Shown here: in pieces, positions 1,851 through 9,727 of the stretch
Numbering within the stretch: position 1 is the stretch's first letter
Layout of the letters: each line of letters opens with the position of its first letter
Source: Verrucomicrobiota bacterium
Lineage (GTDB): Bacteria; Verrucomicrobiota; Verrucomicrobiia; Limisphaerales; J093
Assembly: GCA_022710935.1 (NCBI GenBank)
Contig: JAKLFY010000023.1
Location: 1-64,000 of the forward strand
DNA: 64,000 nt
Reading direction: 5' to 3'
Notes under the pieces: generated by a model
The model's input: only the letters and a program-made list of their open reading frames with translations
What the model was told of the DNA's origin: nothing
Databases searched by the model: none
Translations under genes and position numbers: made by a program

Positions 1851-2924
1851 TCAATCCTCGAGTTGCCCGGCCGCCGCGAGGGGAAGCCGGACCGTGACGG
1901 TGGTGACTTCGCCGGGTTGAGAGGAGAAAGCGATGCTGCCGCCGTGGGCCCGCACAATCCACTGGGCGATGGCGAGGCCGATGCCGCAGCCCTCAACGCC
2001 GCTGCCGTGAGCTGCGTCGCCTCGGAAGAAGCGGTCAAACACGCGCGGCAGATTCTCCGAGGCGACTCCGGGTCCGCCATTGCGGATCAGCAACTCGGCG
2101 CTGTCGCCCAGGCGCTGAAGGGCCATCTGGACGGAGCCGTGGGGCTGGTTGTGCTTAATGGCATTGTCTGTGAGATTGAGGAGAAGTTGTTTCAATCGGT
2201 GCCGGTCGCCCTGGACTGTTGTCTCATCGCAGGTTTTCAATTCGACGGTGATCATGCCGGGCCGGGCCAGCAGTTGGGCATCGGCGAAGCTGTCGCGCAC
2301 CAGTTCATCCAGGCGAACGGGCTCGAGGGCCAGCGTCACTTGGCCGGCGTCGGCTTTGGCCAGGAGCGTGAGCGAATCCACAATCCGGGTGAGGTGGACG
2401 ATTTGGTCGATCTGATTGGCGAAGATCTCACGCTGTGCCGCCGGGGTGGCGCTGTCGCGCAGTGCCGTTTCGGTCTCGGCGCGCAACACGGTCAGCGGCG
2501 TCTTGAGTTCGTGCGAGGCGTTGAGGGTGAATTCGCGAATATGAGTGAACGATTCGTCGAGCCGCGCCATCATCGAGTTAAAGACGTCGGTGAGGCGTTC
2601 GAGTTCATCGCCGGTGCCGGTTGGCGGGAGCCGTTCCTGGAGATTGTTGATGTGAATCCGCTCGGCGGCGCGAGTCAGGACTGTGATTGGGGCGCAGGAT
2701 TTCCGGAGCAACCACCAACTGCCCAGGAAGAGCAGAAGCGTGGTGGGCAGGGCGTAGTAGAGCAGGACTTCGCCGACTTCCTCCCAGGCGGGTTCCGGTT
2801 GTCTTCCTTGAGTCTGGCGCCGCTGCCCCTCGACCCATTCGTAGTGCAGCGCTCCAGCCAGCAGGGCGAGCGACAGGAACAGGACGCCCCCCATCCAGAG
2901 CATGAGTCGTGTTCGAATCGTCAC
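1851..2924 (-). CDS. Sensor histidine kinase, partner of the CusR-like regulator
   Basis: Membrane sensor kinase of 357 residues. It has TM1 at about 7-29, a very short periplasmic loop of about 25 residues, TM2 at about 54-74, and a HAMP domain to about 127. The dimerisation domain carries the phosphoacceptor His138 in ASHELKTPL, and the ATPase domain has NLTDNAIKHN, DRFFRG and GIGLAIAQWIVRAHGG. The GTG start is chosen because it overlaps the stop of the upstream regulator gene as GTGA, which implies translational coupling; longer frames add a basic, non-membrane N-terminus. The tiny sensor loop is unlike CusS, whose large periplasmic domain binds metal, so the signal may be sensed in the membrane. 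It probably phosphorylates the regulator encoded just upstream. Confidence 0.93.
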   Translation of the reverse strand: MTIRTRLMLWMGGVLFLSLALLAGALHYEWVEGQRRQTQGRQPEPAWEEVGEVLLYYALPTTLLLFLGSWWLLRKSCAPITVLTRAAERIHINNLQERLPPTGTGDELERLTDVFNSMMARLDESFTHIREFTLNASHELKTPLTVLRAETETALRDSATPAAQREIFANQIDQIVHLTRIVDSLTLLAKADAGQVTLALEPVRLDELVRDSFADAQLLARPGMITVELKTCDETTVQGDRHRLKQLLLNLTDNAIKHNQPHGSVQMALQRLGDSAELLIRNGGPGVASENLPRVFDRFFRGDAAHGSGVEGCGIGLAIAQWIVRAHGGSIAFSSQPGEVTTVTVRLPLAAAGQLED

Positions 2925-3595
2925 GATGGCTCCTTGAGCACGTAGCCGACGCCCCGCACGGTGTGAAGGAGCTTCGGTTCGAAGCCGGCGTCGATCTTCT
3001 CGCGCAAGCGCATGATGTAGACATCCACCAGGTTGCTGCCGGGATCGAAATCGTAGTCCCAGACCTTCTCGACGATGGCCATCCGTCCGCAAATGCGGCC
3101 GGCCGAGCGCATCAGGAACTCCAGCAACAGGTACTCGCGCGGCGCGAGATCAATCGGTGTTCCGCCCCGCTTCACCTTGCGGGTGACCGAGTCGAGCGTG
3201 AGATCCGCGATGCGCAGGACGGGAGTCTTGGCCTCGCTCTGCCGGCGTCCGAGCGCCCGGACGCGCGCAAGCACTTCCTCGAGGGCAAAGGGTTTGGGCA
3301 GGTAATCGTCGGCGCCGGCGTCCAATCCCTCAATTCTTTCGCCGACCTCTCCGCGCGCGCTCAGCAGCAACACCGGGACCGTGATTCTCCGCTCCCGCAT
3401 CTGGCGGACCACGCTCAGACCGTCGCGGCCCGGCAACATGATGTCGAGCACGATCACGTCGAACGGAGTGTTGGCGGCGGCGAGGAGCGCCTCGGAGCCG
3501 TCGTGCAGCACGTCCACCACGTGGCCCTCGGCCTGCAGCGCCTTGCGGATGAACGAGGCGGTCTTGTGTTCGTCTTCGACTACGAGCACACGCAT
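2921..3595 (-). CDS. OmpR-family response regulator, CusR/CopR-like subgroup
   Basis: DNA-binding response regulator of 224 residues. The receiver domain has the acidic pocket VVEDE, phosphoacceptor Asp51 in VLDIMLPGRDG, and Lys101 in YLPKPF. The winged-helix domain ends FEPKLLHTVRGVGYVL, which closely resembles CusR of E. coli (FEPKLIQTVRGVGYML) and places it in the heavy-metal regulator subgroup. The start is the ATG of MRVLVVEDE; upstream codons are not conserved. Its stop overlaps the GTG of the histidine kinase. A palindrome of the CusR-box type lies in the divergent promoter at 5545-5560, so I infer that it controls the flanking envelope genes. Whether the signal is a metal, a peptide or membrane stress is unknown. 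Confidence 0.93.
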   Translation of the reverse strand: MRVLVVEDEHKTASFIRKALQAEGHVVDVLHDGSEALLAAANTPFDVIVLDIMLPGRDGLSVVRQMRERRITVPVLLLSARGEVGERIEGLDAGADDYLPKPFALEEVLARVRALGRRQSEAKTPVLRIADLTLDSVTRKVKRGGTPIDLAPREYLLLEFLMRSAGRICGRMAIVEKVWDYDFDPGSNLVDVYIMRLREKIDAGFEPKLLHTVRGVGYVLKEPS

Positions 3596-3697: not shown

Positions 3698-5497
3698 TTA
3701 TCCTTTACCGGCATCCTCAAGAGGCAGCCTCCATGTTTCCGCGGGAGCCAGCACCCGCTCCAGAACGGCATCGGCGCGCCCCGAAGCGCTCGACACGACC
3801 CGGATGCGCACCGGCTGATCGAATGGCGATTGGTTGAGAACCGAGATCTCACCCGCCCCGTCGCCGCGCCGCACGACAAGATCGTGGCCTTTGGTCTTCA
3901 CGAGCTCCAGACGGTCCAATCGAACCAGCAACGGACCATAGAGCGTCGCGATTCGCGAGGACTTGTCCCCGGGAGGACGATTGCCCACGATGCGGACAAC
4001 GGGCGGGCCTTGGGCTGGCCAGCGGGCGATTTCGCGCAGAGCGGGCGTCTCGGGCCCGAGTTGCGCGAGCAGCTTGTCATAGTCCGACACGCAAACGTAG
4101 GCCGGGTAGTCTTGCTGGAGCAACTGCGCCGCCCGCTCAAACGAGGCCAACGGCCAGGCGGTATTGAGGTAGAATTGCAGGGCAAAAGGTGTGTCGACGT
4201 GAACGAGCGGGAAGCGTTCTCCCCAGCACTCACGGACGGCTGCCGCGACTTCACGCATCCCGAGCGTGGTCCGAACGCGCCTGCTACGCCCCAGCAGGAC
4301 ATGATGGTAGAGCATGAGCGATGCGAGCACGAGGACACCCAGCCCGCTCGTGGCGCAGATCAATCTCTTCGTTGACCACAACTGAACCCAGCGCCCCAGT
4401 TCACGTCCCGCCAACAAGGCGGCCGCCGGAATCAGCGGAAAAATCAGGCGGCCGCGTTGGTGAGCGGCGACGCAGAAAAGCACCAGGCCCGAGAAGAACC
4501 AGCAGAACAGGAATCGCTCGAAGCGCCGGGTGGCAGAGGCACGGGCTGGGTCGTTCCAGACGCGCCACCAGGCCACCACGGCCACCAGACTCCACGGCCC
4601 AAATTCCTTGAGGAAGCTCCACGGCGGTTCGTAGAAACCGAGCAACACGGTTTCATGGCGCCCTGTTCCGGTCGCGTGGGCTGCCAGTTCGCGCCCGAGC
4701 ATCTTCTGAATCACGGGCGATCCCGCTTCCATGTAGGCCAGCGCAAACCAGCCCCCGCAGATCCCCAGGAACAAGAGCACGCCTGGCCAGTGCGAACCTC
4801 GCAGGCGCGTTTCGTGGCCGGTGCGCCGCTCCCAGAAATGCGCCAGCAGGCCCCCCGCGCCCAGCACCAGCGCGATCGGTCCCTTCGCCAGCGTGCCGAT
4901 CGCCCCGGCCAGCCAAAACCACGTCCAACCGCGTCCGAGGGACCATGCGCGAAACGCGGCCAGTGCCGCGAGCGTGACGGGCAACGCCAACAATCCATCA
5001 TAGCGCGCGGTGACCATCTGTCGCGCGCCCGCCGCGGAGAGCAGGTAAATGACGGCGCCCAGAAGGCCCGATCGCCAGTCGAATTGCCGCTTGCCCGCGG
5101 CCAGGAGGAGCAGGGCGACGCCAACGGTGGCCAGTGCGGACGGGAGGTAAAGGGCGAAGCGGTTGATTTCGCCGAAGGCAAGCGTCGCGAGACCGGCAAT
5201 CCACATCAAGAGCGGCGGTTTGGAGGCCACCGCGCCTGTCACGTCGTGTTGGACGATCCAGCGCCCGTTTTGGACTGCGTCGAGCACGTAGCTCCCGACA
5301 CGCCGTTCGTTATCCATCAAATTGGGATAGCCCGAGAGGGCGATCGCGAACATGGCCGTCCCCAGCGCCGCGACGAGGAGGTAGAGCGTCCAAGTCGGCG
5401 GCGCAGTGGGGCAAGGGAACGTCTCCGTTTCGGATCGGGCAGGCTCGTGTCCGTGCGCGTCCCCGGGCGGCTCGTGTTTCGTGATGGCGGCGTTCAC
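3698..5497 (-). CDS. GT39/ArnT-like membrane glycosyltransferase
   Basis: Polytopic inner-membrane glycosyltransferase (about 599 residues from the GTG start) of the PMT/ArnT class. These enzymes move a sugar from a polyprenyl phosphate to lipid A or another acceptor on the periplasmic side. The first loop has the acidic pair in NLMDNERRVGSYVLDAV and then SKPPLLMW, the usual substrate-binding stretch. About ten further hydrophobic segments and a soluble C-terminal domain follow. A longer ATG start at 5560 is open, but that ATG lies inside the predicted operator, so I prefer the GTG at 5497 (VNAAITKHE), which still leaves a short N-terminus before TM1. The gene precedes the regulator and kinase genes on the same strand. 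The true acceptor is not shown by the sequence. Confidence 0.82.
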   Translation of the reverse strand: MNAAITKHEPPGDAHGHEPARSETETFPCPTAPPTWTLYLLVAALGTAMFAIALSGYPNLMDNERRVGSYVLDAVQNGRWIVQHDVTGAVASKPPLLMWIAGLATLAFGEINRFALYLPSALATVGVALLLLAAGKRQFDWRSGLLGAVIYLLSAAGARQMVTARYDGLLALPVTLAALAAFRAWSLGRGWTWFWLAGAIGTLAKGPIALVLGAGGLLAHFWERRTGHETRLRGSHWPGVLLFLGICGGWFALAYMEAGSPVIQKMLGRELAAHATGTGRHETVLLGFYEPPWSFLKEFGPWSLVAVVAWWRVWNDPARASATRRFERFLFCWFFSGLVLFCVAAHQRGRLIFPLIPAAALLAGRELGRWVQLWSTKRLICATSGLGVLVLASLMLYHHVLLGRSRRVRTTLGMREVAAAVRECWGERFPLVHVDTPFALQFYLNTAWPLASFERAAQLLQQDYPAYVCVSDYDKLLAQLGPETPALREIARWPAQGPPVVRIVGNRPPGDKSSRIATLYGPLLVRLDRLELVKTKGHDLVVRRGDGAGEISVLNQSPFDQPVRIRVVSSASGRADAVLERVLAPAETWRLPLEDAGKG

Positions 5498-5544
5498 GCT
5501 GCGCCAACTGTCTCGCCTCCGTGTGAAAGCAGGATGAACCGTGA

Positions 5545-5560
5545 ATGACAAAACTGTCAT
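5545..5560. promoter_or_regulatory. Predicted CusR-box-like operator
   Basis: ATGACAAAACTGTCAT is a perfect palindrome of two 6-bp arms with a 4-base spacer. The E. coli CusR/HprR box has the same arms and spacing (ATGACA, four bases, TGTCAT). It lies between the divergent GT39 and GT2 genes, 2 kb from a CusR-like regulator gene. Confidence 0.55.
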
Positions 5561-5680
5561 CCGGCTTTCATTTCGGCGCCATCTCGATCCTCCATTGTGC
5601 CAGCCAATGATGAGTTTCATAGCGCTTGGAGCGGATGCAGGCGACGCCTCGCCTCACACTCGTTTCCGACAACCCCGCGC

Positions 5681-6388
5681 ATGAGTCCGGGGGATGCCTC
5701 ATTCTCGGTCGTGGTTCCCTTCTACAACGAGGAGGACAACGTGCGTTCTGTGCTCGAAGAACTGCGCGCGACGCTCCCACGGGCCGAAATTGTCGCTATC
5801 GACGACGGAAGCAGCGACCGCACCTGGAGGGCTGTCAGTGAAATGACGGGAATCCGGGGACTGCGGTTCGCCGAGAATCTCGGGCAAAGCGCCGCGATTT
5901 ACCACGGACTACACGCGTGTACGGGTGCGGTCTGCGGTCTGATGGACGGTGACGGCCAGAATGATCCCGCCAGTTTCTGGCCGCTCCTCGATGCATTTCA
6001 TGGCGGCGGCGTGGATGTCGTCTGCGGCTATCGGGAGGATCGGCATGACGCATGGAATCGAAAGGCTGCATCGAGGATCGCGAACGCGATTCGCCGCGCG
6101 TTCCTCCACGACGGCATCCGCGACACCGGCTGTTCTCAAAAGGTGTTCCCGCGACAGGCGGTGGACCTGCTGGTCCCGTTCCGGGGACTGCACCGGTACC
6201 TGCCCGCGATCTTCCGGCAGGCGGGACTCCGCCTGGCCGAGGTGCCAGTCCGGCATCGCCCGCGCTTCGCCGGGACATCGAAGTACAACAACTGGTCGCG
6301 TGCCCGCGCGGGGGCCTTCGACCTGATCGGCGTCGCGTGGCTGCTCCGCCGGCAACTGCCCCGGGCCCGAGTCCAGGCAACCAAGTGA
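5681..6388 (+). CDS. GT2 glycosyltransferase, dolichyl-phosphate-mannose-synthase-like
   Basis: Cytoplasmic family 2 glycosyltransferase of 235 residues. Members of this subgroup load a sugar from a nucleotide donor onto undecaprenyl phosphate, which a GT39 enzyme then uses. Visible motifs are SVVVPFYNEEDN, the nucleotide-binding DDGSSD, the metal-binding MDGDGQNDP and the late GCSQKVFPR and RHRPRFAGTSKYNNW. The start at MSPGDASFSVVV gives the normal N-terminus; longer frames add unrelated residues. It has no C-terminal membrane anchor, unlike ArnC. Its stop abuts the ATG of the LAB_N gene, so the two are probably co-translated. With the GT39 genes on both sides it forms a donor-making and donor-using set. 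Confidence 0.9.
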   Translation: MSPGDASFSVVVPFYNEEDNVRSVLEELRATLPRAEIVAIDDGSSDRTWRAVSEMTGIRGLRFAENLGQSAAIYHGLHACTGAVCGLMDGDGQNDPASFWPLLDAFHGGGVDVVCGYREDRHDAWNRKAASRIANAIRRAFLHDGIRDTGCSQKVFPRQAVDLLVPFRGLHRYLPAIFRQAGLRLAEVPVRHRPRFAGTSKYNNWSRARAGAFDLIGVAWLLRRQLPRARVQATK

Positions 6389-6739
6389 ATGAATGACACG
6401 TTGTTCCGAGTTGATCTGTTTGACGTCGCAGTGGTGATCACACCGTGGAAGCTCATCGGGTACTTGGGTGTCGCTCTCTTCGCGGGGCGCTGGTTCGTCC
6501 AGGTGATCGCGTCGCACTCGGCGCGCCGCTCCCAATTCCCGCGCCTGTTCTGGTATATGTCGCTGCTGGGCAGCCTGCTGCTGCTCTCCTACTTCAGTCT
6601 CAGCAACAAGAGTGATTCGGTTGGCGTGCTTTCCAACCTGTTTCCCGCGGCCATCGCGGCCTACAACCTGTTTCTCGAGGCACGGCACGACCGCCGTCAG
6701 GCCGGTGTGAGCCGCTCAGCGCAAGGGGCCTCGAGCTGA
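6389..6739 (+). CDS. LAB_N (lipid A biosynthesis N-terminal) domain membrane protein
   Basis: Small membrane protein of 116 residues with three hydrophobic segments. It matches the LAB_N domain, found at the N-terminus of some lipid-A-disaccharide synthases and as a free protein beside GT2 and GT39 genes. Characteristic pieces are YLGVALFAGRWFVQVIAS, FPRLFWYMSLLGSLLLL and FSNKSDSVG-like SLSNKSDSVGVLSNLFP. Its function is not established; the repeated company of lipid-glycosylating enzymes suggests a flippase or scaffold role. It begins directly after the GT2 stop and is followed within five bases by the truncated GT39 frame. Confidence 0.87.
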   Translation: MNDTLFRVDLFDVAVVITPWKLIGYLGVALFAGRWFVQVIASHSARRSQFPRLFWYMSLLGSLLLLSYFSLSNKSDSVGVLSNLFPAAIAAYNLFLEARHDRRQAGVSRSAQGASS

Positions 6740-6743
6740 AGCG

Positions 6744-7901
6744 ATGACGCATCCGCGACCCAGCACCGTTGGTCCGGTTGGCGAAGAGCGCGGACGACCG
6801 TGCGGCGCCGCAACCCCCGGGACGCGCACGGCCATGACACCTGTCAGGCAACCGATGCTCGAGTCTGAATCGAGTTGCGGCCGATACTCGGAGCGAGTGG
6901 CACTGGCCGTGTTCGTCGTGATCGCCTGTTTTGCCCTGCTGGGCGGGCGCGGCCCCAACGAACCGGACGAGGGGCGCTACGCGGAGATCAGCCGCGAAAT
7001 GTCGAAGAGCGGAGACTGGCTGAACCGCGAGCTGAAGACCGACCAGTCATTTTGCTGCGTGTGGTGGTTGATGATTGGCTGGGTGGTGCCTCCGTTTCTG
7101 GTGCTTTCGTTGAGCGGCTCGAAGCTGATCACCTACGTGCTTCCCCTCTATCCCGCACTGGCCCTGGCGATCGGGGGATGGTGGGAGCGGGTGGGAAGCA
7201 GGTCCGATCTGACCTGGCATACCGCAAGCATCGCAGGGTTTTTCGGTAGCCTAATTGTGGCCCTCGTGGCAGCTCTGCGGTTCACCACGCACACGATACC
7301 CGCCGTGCCGCTGCCCCTGCTCGGGGTTCTGGTCCTGGTCGCACTGGGCATGGGCGCCCTGACCGTGCCGGTCAAGCCCAAGGCCTCCGTGCTGGGAGGC
7401 GGTTTTGCGGCAGCCTCATTGGCCGTATGGATCCTTCTGCTGAGCCAAGCCGCATCGTGGAATGACCTGATGGGGGTCGGAGCATCCATGCGGAGCCTGG
7501 CGCAACGAATTCGTTCTGAGACTGGCAACGAGCCGATGGTCTTCGTCTACGGAGTCAACGTGCCGGGATTGGACTGGTATTTGTCGCGTCTGATCCACGT
7601 TTCCGGAGACCGCGTGGATCATCTCTTGCCGGCGACGCCCGCCCAGCAGGCAAGACTGCTCTCCTCGCCCGCACAATGCTCGACCCTTGCGCCGCCGGGG
7701 CAGCCGGTCTTTGGGGTGGTCAAGTTGACGAAAGTGGGCTCGGACTGGCCGACCAATACGTGGCGCGTTGTTGCGACCGCGGGGTCATTCGCCTTGATCC
7801 AGCGGATGGAGGGGGTCGCGAGCGATTCTTCGAAACCGCCTGTGCCGCTGGCCCGCACGCTTCACGGAGTCTCGATCGGCTCATCTCGGGTCAATGACTG
7901 A
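6744..7901 (+). CDS. GT39/ArnT-like glycosyltransferase with internal deletion, probably inactive
   Basis: An open frame of 385 residues in which two distant parts of an ArnT-like enzyme are joined. The N-terminal part has the expected TM1 and acidic motif (GPNEPDEGRYAEISREM, then SGDWLN). It then jumps, near base 7040, to the late membrane segment PPFLVLSLSGSKLITYVLP. Family members have some 250 residues between these points, including the lipid-binding loops and several membrane helices, and these are absent here. The C-terminal domain is otherwise intact and the frame is preserved. The gene overlaps the next one by eight bases and still sits in the operon. It may be a recent deletion allele, a pseudogene that happens to stay in frame, or an assembly collapse. 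Confidence 0.75.
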   Translation: MTHPRPSTVGPVGEERGRPCGAATPGTRTAMTPVRQPMLESESSCGRYSERVALAVFVVIACFALLGGRGPNEPDEGRYAEISREMSKSGDWLNRELKTDQSFCCVWWLMIGWVVPPFLVLSLSGSKLITYVLPLYPALALAIGGWWERVGSRSDLTWHTASIAGFFGSLIVALVAALRFTTHTIPAVPLPLLGVLVLVALGMGALTVPVKPKASVLGGGFAAASLAVWILLLSQAASWNDLMGVGASMRSLAQRIRSETGNEPMVFVYGVNVPGLDWYLSRLIHVSGDRVDHLLPATPAQQARLLSSPAQCSTLAPPGQPVFGVVKLTKVGSDWPTNTWRVVATAGSFALIQRMEGVASDSSKPPVPLARTLHGVSIGSSRVND

Positions 7902-8649
7902 CGCATCCGCAAGTGAAGCAGGCCGGCGGGTCTCGGCGCAACGGAAGGGAGAGGCATCAGTCCGCGGCATCGGAGGTCGAGAATCCGATTCCGCTGAACA
8001 AACCAGGAGTCGTTTCAACAGCGAGGTTTCCGCCAGGAAATACGCCCGTTCGCTGCATGGAACGGCGACACATCGGCGTGAAATGCTCTGCGTACGCCGG
8101 ATGTTGGGGGGGCTGCCACCCGGATCGAAGGTGTTGGACCTGCCCTCCGGCACCGGACGGCTGCTGCCTCTTCTGGTTGAAATGGGATTCCCGGTGACCG
8201 AGGCGGATTCATCCGTGCACATGCTGGAAAAGGCTCAAGACTATGCGCGGACCCGAGGGATCGCTCAGGGCGTTGAATTCCGTGTCGAAGACGCCTTCTT
8301 GACCAGTTTCAAAGACGCCGCCTTCGACGCCATTCTCTGCAACCGCCTGTTCCATCACTTCCGGGAACCGGAGGTTCGTCGGCGCTGCCTGCGCGAGTTG
8401 GGCCGGATTTGCCGGGGCCCGATCGTCGTTTCTTTCTTCTGCGACTGCTCCTTGGGAGCTTGGATGTTTCGTCTGCGGAACTGGATTCGGCACAGAACGC
8501 CCACCGACCGAATCCCCATCCCGCGCACCCAGTTCATCGCAGACGCTGAGGCGACCGGGTTGCGGGTCGTTCAAACGCTGGCGACGCGTCGCTGGATTTC
8601 CAAACAGTGGTATGCGGTGCTCGAGAGAACTCGGCCAGAGACGGCCTAA
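7894..8649 (+). CDS. Class I SAM-dependent methyltransferase
   Basis: Soluble methyltransferase of 251 residues. Motif I is KVLDLPSGTGRLLPLL, the acidic residue after the next strand is in VTEADSSVHML, and post-I and motif II regions are VEDAFL and FDAILCNRLFHHF. The C-terminal half (RTPTDRIPIPRTQFIADAEA) is typical of a group found near lipopolysaccharide kinases and glycosyltransferases. Its substrate is unknown; context suggests a lipid- or glycan-linked sugar. It overlaps the preceding truncated GT39 gene by eight bases, consistent with one operon from the GT2 gene onward. The 3' end overlaps the last bases of the opposing GH127 remnant. Confidence 0.88.
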   Translation: MTDASASEAGRRVSAQRKGEASVRGIGGRESDSAEQTRSRFNSEVSARKYARSLHGTATHRREMLCVRRMLGGLPPGSKVLDLPSGTGRLLPLLVEMGFPVTEADSSVHMLEKAQDYARTRGIAQGVEFRVEDAFLTSFKDAAFDAILCNRLFHHFREPEVRRRCLRELGRICRGPIVVSFFCDCSLGAWMFRLRNWIRHRTPTDRIPIPRTQFIADAEATGLRVVQTLATRRWISKQWYAVLERTRPETA

Positions 8650-9484
8650 CACGCGTCGATTTCAGGATGTCCACACGGCGCGTCGAGGCGGCCGAACGGA
8701 TCCCGAACCTCGACGAACTGCTTCGTTGCCTGCCCAAGCCGTTGCTCGTCCACTGCCCGGGCGGCCTGTCGCGCCGCCTCGCGGGCTTTGGCTGCCTCGC
8801 GCGCGCTGCGCTCGAATTGGATCCGCTGCCACCCAGCCTCGTCCGTCAGCCGCCAGTACACCGCATAGTGCTGGTCGAACAGTCGGTGGTACGGCACGAG
8901 GGTCACATCACCCGGCCGGCCCGCGCCGTTGGTGCGGAAGGCCAAGGGCCGGCCCTCGACCGGGCGAATCCAGGCCCGCGGGTCGCGCTGCGTCGCCACC
9001 ATCACGGGCGCCTCGACGATGCGATCCGCGGGAAACTCGAACCAGTTGCCCGTCGTGTAGACCAGGTCCCGCGGCACGTCGACCTTGCCCAACTCGCCGG
9101 CCAGGACCAGCGGGCCGTACATCACCGCCACAAGATCCGGATCGTCGGGCATAGGACACAGCCAGAGACGCATTGGCATCTGCATCTCGACCTCCGTCTG
9201 GTCCCGCCAGGTGCGGCGGATCGACAGGAACGATCCGTGCTGCGCCGTCACGGCCTGATCCTGGCCGTCGATCTTCAGGGTCACACCCTCGGTCGCCCAT
9301 TCGGGCACGCGCAGACGCAACTCGAACTCGGTCGGGGCTGCTGCCCGGATGGTCAGTCTCGTCGCGGAACCGATCACATTGGGAATGAACGAATTGACGT
9401 GCAGCCCCTTCAGCTCGTTGCGGTGGAGCATCAGCGGCCGGTTGTGAGATGGACAAGTATCGCGAGGCCAACGTTGCGCTGCAT
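8646..9484 (-). pseudogene. GH127 second copy with two internal deletions
   Basis: A decayed copy of the gene at the left edge, on the same strand. Bases 9093-9368 match 1-276, 9370-9445 match 815-890, and 9446 to about 9590 match 1597 to about 1740, including the signal peptide and upstream sequence. The two missing blocks are 537 bp, which keeps the frame, and 706 bp, which breaks it. The signal-peptide frame from the ATG at 9484 therefore stops soon after the second junction. The ETC and CC zinc/nucleophile motifs are both lost. The C-terminal beta domain (FELRLRVPEWATEGVTLKI, YGPLVLAGELG) is intact to the stop and shows what the first copy would encode beyond the window. A TTG start could express a fragment without an active site. 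Confidence 0.88.
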
Positions 9485-9727
9485 GCAATGATCCTGGTTC
9501 TGACCCGGTGGCGACAGCCCTCTGCGGTCAGATGCACCAAGGCAGAGAATCGCCTGCCGGAATCGGAACGAGGTTCTTGCCTCAAGCCCCCTGCGTCAAG
9601 CCCTCATGGAACTCGGCCCTCCGAAATTCGTCGTCGGCCGGGCAGATTCCGGGGCATAGTCGGGCGAACGATCGGACCAAACGCCTGCGACGCTCCGTGA
9701 ACCGTCGCTCTTCCTGCCCCACAATTG

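Follow-up and report, generated by a model that had tools for sequence, protein, structure and literature searches.

The CusR palindrome of E. coli is AAAATGACAAnnTTGTCATTTT, and in Pseudomonas the regulators CopR, CzcR and CusR, which belong to the same family, also have palindromic operators, with a ATTCATnnATGTAAT-type site (PMC11195947). These Pseudomonas palindromes lie in divergent promoters, although their targets there are metal resistance genes. The E. coli box, which is read by HprR too, is likewise found in a divergent promoter, one side of which belongs to the operon of the regulator itself. Several systems are also known in which a two-component pair controls lipid modification. 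PmrAB (BasRS), with arnT and eptA among its genes, combines such control with a short-loop sensor, and the PmrA box is a direct repeat of the CTTAAG type. In V. vulnificus, the regulator of CarRS activates its own operon as well as the lipid-modifying gene eptA and a TolC tripartite efflux operon (PMC10433830). The Pseudomonas ColRS system responds to envelope and metal stress and carries ExxE in the periplasmic part of its sensor; sensing through ExxE has been reported for both ColS and PmrB (PMC4074579).

Here we describe a locus of a Verrucomicrobiota bacterium in which a CusR-type operator stands beside genes for lipid modification. The window, that is, the whole 64-kb stretch of DNA analysed, contains a single exact match to ATGACAAAACTGTCAT, of the form ATGACA-N4-TGTCAT, at 5545-5560, and the 7,519,762-base source genome holds no other. 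The palindrome sits in the gap between a GT39 gene on the minus strand and GT2/LAB_N genes on the plus strand, so the window has what characterizes a CusR-type operator, this inverted repeat in a divergent promoter. The original prediction had pointed to a CusR/HprR-like palindrome exactly there, and both its position and its likeness to the E. coli box, read upstream of cusC, were right, since arms and spacing are equal. It held for the core only, however, as the real element is longer: ATGAAC-N5-ATGACA-N4-TGTCAT-N5-TTTCAT spans 5534-5571, its half-sites recurring with an 11-bp period both left and right of the inverted centre. The features of the locus are as follows.

1851-2924, minus strand: sensor histidine kinase (HK) with two TM helices, HAMP, HisKA and HATPase
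2921-3595, minus strand: OmpR/PhoB-family response regulator (RR), CusR/CopR-like by profile models and identity to E. coli CusR
3698-5497, minus strand: GT39-type (PMT_2) glycosyltransferase (PF13231)
5507-5515, minus strand: candidate -10 region for GT39, GACAGT at 5512-5507 (-1.8 bits, rank 3 of 52; weak)
5523-5528, minus strand: third half-site of the array toward GT39, TTTCAC, from sequence; in phase but weaker than the four of the operator, this phase being conserved in related sites though unselected
5534-5571, no strand: operator with half-sites ATGAAC / ATGACA / TGTCAT / TTTCAT, from exact match, congener conservation and matrix
5577-5582, plus strand: third half-site of the array toward GT2, CGCCAT, from sequence; weak, in phase but a poor match
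5590-5598, plus strand: candidate -10 region for GT2, CATTGT at 5593-5598, spaced as at other sites (weak; 0.86 bits, fourth among 52 offsets)
5681-6388, plus strand: GT2 glycosyltransferase, start ATG 5681, from profile search and congener alignment
6389-6739, plus strand: membrane protein with LAB_N (lipid A biosynthesis N-terminal domain; PF07578, passed with 65 bits against a gathering score of 26.7)
6744-7901, plus strand: ArnT-like GT-C transferase, its middle deleted in frame, from profile and congener comparison
7894-8649, plus strand: SAM methyltransferase, the final gene of the run (orthologue 86% identical in the same place in L018)

An ATG within the palindrome shares the GT39 reading frame, but the geometry of operator and promoter favours the GTG at 5497, downstream of the operator, as the probable start of this gene. 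For GT2 we chose ATG 5681 because in the congener (G001) a 23-bp deletion just upstream breaks the longer frame. The proteins of the locus score far under the cut-offs of the ArnT and ArnC models; with the ArnT model PRK13279 (cut-off 567) the GT39 protein reaches 29.5, the ArnT-like protein of the window 50.6 and the full copy of the congener 191.9. All six genomes with lipid loci (G000 and five relatives) contain lpxC and lpxK, so these bacteria, judged by gene content, make lipid A. The lipid and two-component block is flanked by direct repeats (1-276 and 9093-9368, 98.9% identical; further pairs 809-890 / 9364-9445 and 1596-1756 / 9445-9605), which represent a second, internally deleted copy of a glycosidase-like gene (1-1635).

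The gene order is conserved in the congener: methyltransferase, ArnT-like, LAB_N, GT2, operator, GT39, RR, HK, with the operator intact at L018:6514-6551. A second copy of the operator lies there 3' of the HK gene and precedes a TolC-MFP-RND operon, so that a single RR-HK pair has the lipid genes on one side and an RND operon on the other, both of them carrying an operator of their own. The source genome has no orthologue of this pump (best 31%), and the lipid locus is therefore the only strong operator target that we found in it. The two genomes also carry reciprocal in-frame deletions, each retaining the other gene whole: the window's ArnT-like gene lacks approximately residues 113-321 of the congener's protein (about 210 codons), and the congener's GT39 gene (L018:6525-6941) lacks residues 61-538, with the junction at a short repeat, ACGCTCTA. 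As each of these genes has lost its middle, some of the locus may be undergoing decay.

Is the operator confined to this pair of genomes? A search for TGACN5TGTCATN5TTTCAT with at most one mismatch gave 50 matches, spread over 41 of the 293 genomes of the order, against 3 for the reversed pattern, and a close relative of the RR was usually found around the matches. Among the 34 sites retained, unselected columns are conserved too, namely the leading A and a third TTCAT half-site 11 bp on, and the third half-site is also conserved in a set of 90 sites. On a matrix built without the genus of the window, the window operator scores 44.2 bits on the plus strand and 39.6 bits on the minus strand, while no other position in the 64-kb window reaches 10. 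In the source genome, places matching the palindrome with one mismatch score at most 3.5 bits and those from the long pattern with three mismatches at most 14.8 bits, hence none of these near-matches is a second strong operator. The E. coli cusR-cusC box scores 27.3 bits on the Verrucomicrobial matrix and has an extra half-site, TGTCAC, 11 bp on; compared with it, the second and third direct half-sites of the Verrucomicrobial operator are stronger and conserved.

An independent set was assembled from 60 further loci chosen by RR identity (66-78%) and 20 paralogue loci (55-59%), and a locus was counted as positive when a matrix site of at least 14 bits lay within about 5 kb. The operator was found near the RR in 46 of the 60 loci, in 1 of the 20 paralogue loci and in none of the reversed sequences (46/60 vs 1/20, Fisher p = 1e-8, a value to be read with related genomes not being fully independent). 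Fourteen RR loci had no site at this threshold, some of them on short contigs. Within 600 bp upstream of the RR itself, 16 of the 60 loci, and none of the 20 paralogues, exceed the largest of 1200 shuffles, most other sites lying before genes upstream of the RR. In the named genomes of the survey, labelled Verrucomicrobia subdivision 3, Limisphaerales or Pedosphaera, sites become rare once RR identity drops under about 63%. As far as can be judged from sequence, the operator is not a product of chance and tracks one response-regulator clade across Limisphaerales-type Verrucomicrobiota. A 42.6-bit site at L331:4187-4225 comes from a contig labelled Bacteroidetes and a 31.3-bit site at L307:8075-8113 from Methylomirabilota. 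Either the operator occurs outside Verrucomicrobiota too, or these bins are mixed. At another locus, L115, operators at 6161 and 8020 lie around adjoining broken and intact RR copies (6877-7294).

Most of the loci with operator and RR are PepSY / TolC-MFP-RND efflux loci, and six are lipid loci of the GT39/GT2/LAB_N type. At efflux loci a PepSY lipoprotein gene or the TolC gene often comes directly behind the site. Many of them (L105:8068-8463, L157:4019-4423, L087:8051-8527 and others) have a small PepSY lipoprotein gene between the operator and RR-HK, which makes it a recurrent partner of the two-component system, and in three of efflux type (L077:7974-9008, L151:256-1341, L153:4311-5342) a secreted beta-propeller-like protein replaces PepSY after the operator. 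Ten genomes were found to have a GT2 orthologue, and G004 adds a LAB_N/ArnT-like version. The original prediction would have failed if the palindrome were not conserved at orthologous loci, a check that it passed. The operator lies beside the lipid genes in all six lipid loci that have the RR (G000, G001, G004, G147, G157, G093) and in none of the five that lack it (G114, G160, G064, G184, G132; Fisher p = 0.002). G147 has two sites, one before PAP2-GT2-LAB_N and one before a GT-C gene, and in G093 the site is followed by a PEMT-like gene, GT39, GT2 and LAB_N. Loci collected by GT39 similarity alone (L019-L027, 35-44% identity) were set aside as not orthologous; they have no RR of the clade, LAB_N of this type or operator nearby. 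A tree of the RR-HK pairs made by a quick method did not trace the lipid-linked pairs to a single origin: those of the window, G001 and G004 fall into one clade, beside which G147 groups with an efflux-linked pair, and G157 and G093 are placed elsewhere with weak support. Because in related bacteria the operator precedes either efflux pumps or genes that decorate outer-membrane lipids, one kind of envelope-stress circuit appears to be attached to both defences.

The original prediction was correct that a CusR-like regulator, 47% identical to E. coli CusR, is encoded 2 kb away and that its sensor has almost no periplasmic domain, and it went on to call the system metal-type. Could this be a true CusRS, with Cu(I)/Ag(I) as the signal and lipid glycosylation as a metal-tolerance response? 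Arms and spacing identical to those of the E. coli operator speak for it, as do the best NCBIfam models of the RR, cztR_silR_copR and CusR PRK09836, and the TolC-MFP-RND operon, with its own operator, that abuts the RR-HK pair of the congener. However, the RR scores 252.7 bits on cztR_silR_copR (TIGR01387), under the curated cut-off of 279.2, and the HK 218.2 bits on the heavy-metal sensor model TIGR01386, below its cut-off of 292.55; as only model positions 164-457 match, the HK lacks the periplasmic part of that model. By these models the RR is nearest to CopR/CusR/HprR, yet it is no member of the heavy-metal family by cut-off. The congener's pump favours the multidrug RND model (590 bits) over CusA/CzcA (510), both values being below cut-off. 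In the window's HK some 25 periplasmic residues separate the two predicted TM helices, and this loop is acidic rather than Met/His-rich; in the window, G001 and G004 alike the loop is short and acidic and contains EWVE. A short-loop sensor is common to the whole regulator clade and not special to the window; of 80 relatives, 67 have E29 and 72 an acidic residue at position 49, and these paired acidic residues recall, by analogy, the ExxE sensing of ColS and PmrB. Some members of the clade do have His-rich loops, which could suit a metal signal: the efflux-linked kinases of L157, L170 and L178 (e.g. AHHHHHHERDEE). The difference between these loops and the acidic, lipid-linked ones hints at different signals. 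Likeness of operators reflects a common DNA-binding lineage and not a common signal, and we consider a copper or silver system unlikely, a metal as the signal being the part of the original prediction that found no support. Nor is this PmrAB itself: the HK aligns along the full length of the PmrB model, but the RR (183.7 vs 330) and the HK (102.8 vs 314) fall far below the PmrA and PmrB equivalog cut-offs, and the operator is no PmrA box.

Phosphate starvation is another conceivable driver of lipid remodelling, and CTGTCAT-N4-CTTTCAT, two 7-bp direct repeats 11 bp apart within the operator, resembles the PhoB direct repeat of E. coli. The centre of the operator is inverted, though, which is no feature of a Pho box. 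Moreover, the genome's own pst-PhoU-PhoB-PhoR locus (L368) is without the operator (best matrix score -2.0), CTGTCAN5CTGTCA is not enriched genome-wide (6 matches against 8 for the reversed pattern), and the sites track the CusR-like clade and not pho genes. To the extent that sequence allows, a Pho box can be ruled out, and we regard it as very improbable. It is still harder to believe that the palindrome arose by chance, or is plain 5' coding sequence of GT39 without a regulatory role. Its in-frame ATG would suit a coding origin, but the core had no match in 100 dinucleotide-preserving shuffles of the window, and the long pattern ATGAAN6ATGACAN4TGTCATN6TTCAT, which fits 5534-5571 without mismatch, had none in 100 shuffles with up to three mismatches tolerated. 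Conservation in the congener, the order-wide association and the phasing of the third half-site likewise rule out a chance palindrome.

We return to the reading that we prefer. Very probably the adjoining two-component regulator binds the element at 5545-5560, and we think it likely that this operator of the neighbouring RR serves the divergent lipid-modification and GT39-RR-HK units through an envelope-stress sensor. In the set of 90 sites a -10-like element, T45 G46 N T48 A/T N A51 A52 T53 (the A of ATGACA being 0), lies at a fixed distance downstream of the operator; in a leave-one-out analysis it gained +5.1 bits at zero shift and -2.7 to -9.3 bits at 51 other shifts. The half-sites would thereby lie at about -60 to -23, where an activator that overlaps the -35 region is expected. 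The window's own copies of this -10-like element are weak in both directions, which makes the promoters there less certain than the operator, and GACAGT of the GT39 candidate is kept in the congener. Where the operator lies between divergent genes (window, G001, G004), it scores at least 36 bits in both directions, which fits one operator serving two promoters.

We propose that the short-loop sensor phosphorylates the RR when it detects envelope stress, perhaps from acid, a metal or a cationic peptide. Head-to-tail RR dimers would bind the 11-bp-spaced half-sites either side of the inverted centre, and each array would contact RNA polymerase, the RR acting as an activator. Since the centre is symmetric, one operator could drive both divergent units, GT39-RR-HK, by positive autoregulation, and GT2-LAB_N-ArnT-like-methyltransferase. 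GT2 would make a polyprenyl-phosphate sugar, the LAB_N protein would move or present it, and the GT-C enzymes would transfer the sugar to an envelope lipid such as lipid A.

The targets in the window, lipid-modification genes, and the sensor loop of about 25 aa set this system apart from E. coli CusR. As in PmrAB, lipid modification would be under two-component control, with which the operator and the genes beside it agree, and the prediction of a PmrAB-like logic built from other parts was fair for the logic, which is nevertheless not new. ColRS has lipid A targets in some species; its regulator and operator differ from those of the window, and its sensor has a periplasmic loop of 96 aa. CarRS resembles the proposed system in joining lipid modification, a tripartite pump and autoregulation, but it uses the motif GACAN6TACA and EptA rather than GT-C enzymes, and it belongs to another phylum (PMC10433830). 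Operator type and regulatory logic are thus each already known separately. Our literature search gave no account of the operator in Verrucomicrobia, and neither the union of the two in this phylum, nor the phased operator, nor its recurrence at lipid loci was found there.

The operator, regulator and target parts of the original interpretation are supported by the sequence comparisons. Somewhat less firmly, we favour the view that this is an envelope-defence regulon, spread across the Verrucomicrobial order, in which a CusR-related RR and a short-loop sensor have been attached repeatedly to lipid operons and RND efflux, with a symmetric, 11-bp-phased operator and divergent promoters at fixed distance. 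For outer-membrane lipid modification it would provide a candidate operator together with its regulator and targets, in a phylum where the literature searched holds no such regulator. The phased sites also suggest that a CusR-type operator may hold more half-sites than the published palindrome, and the motif lets the whole regulon be read in uncultured genomes.
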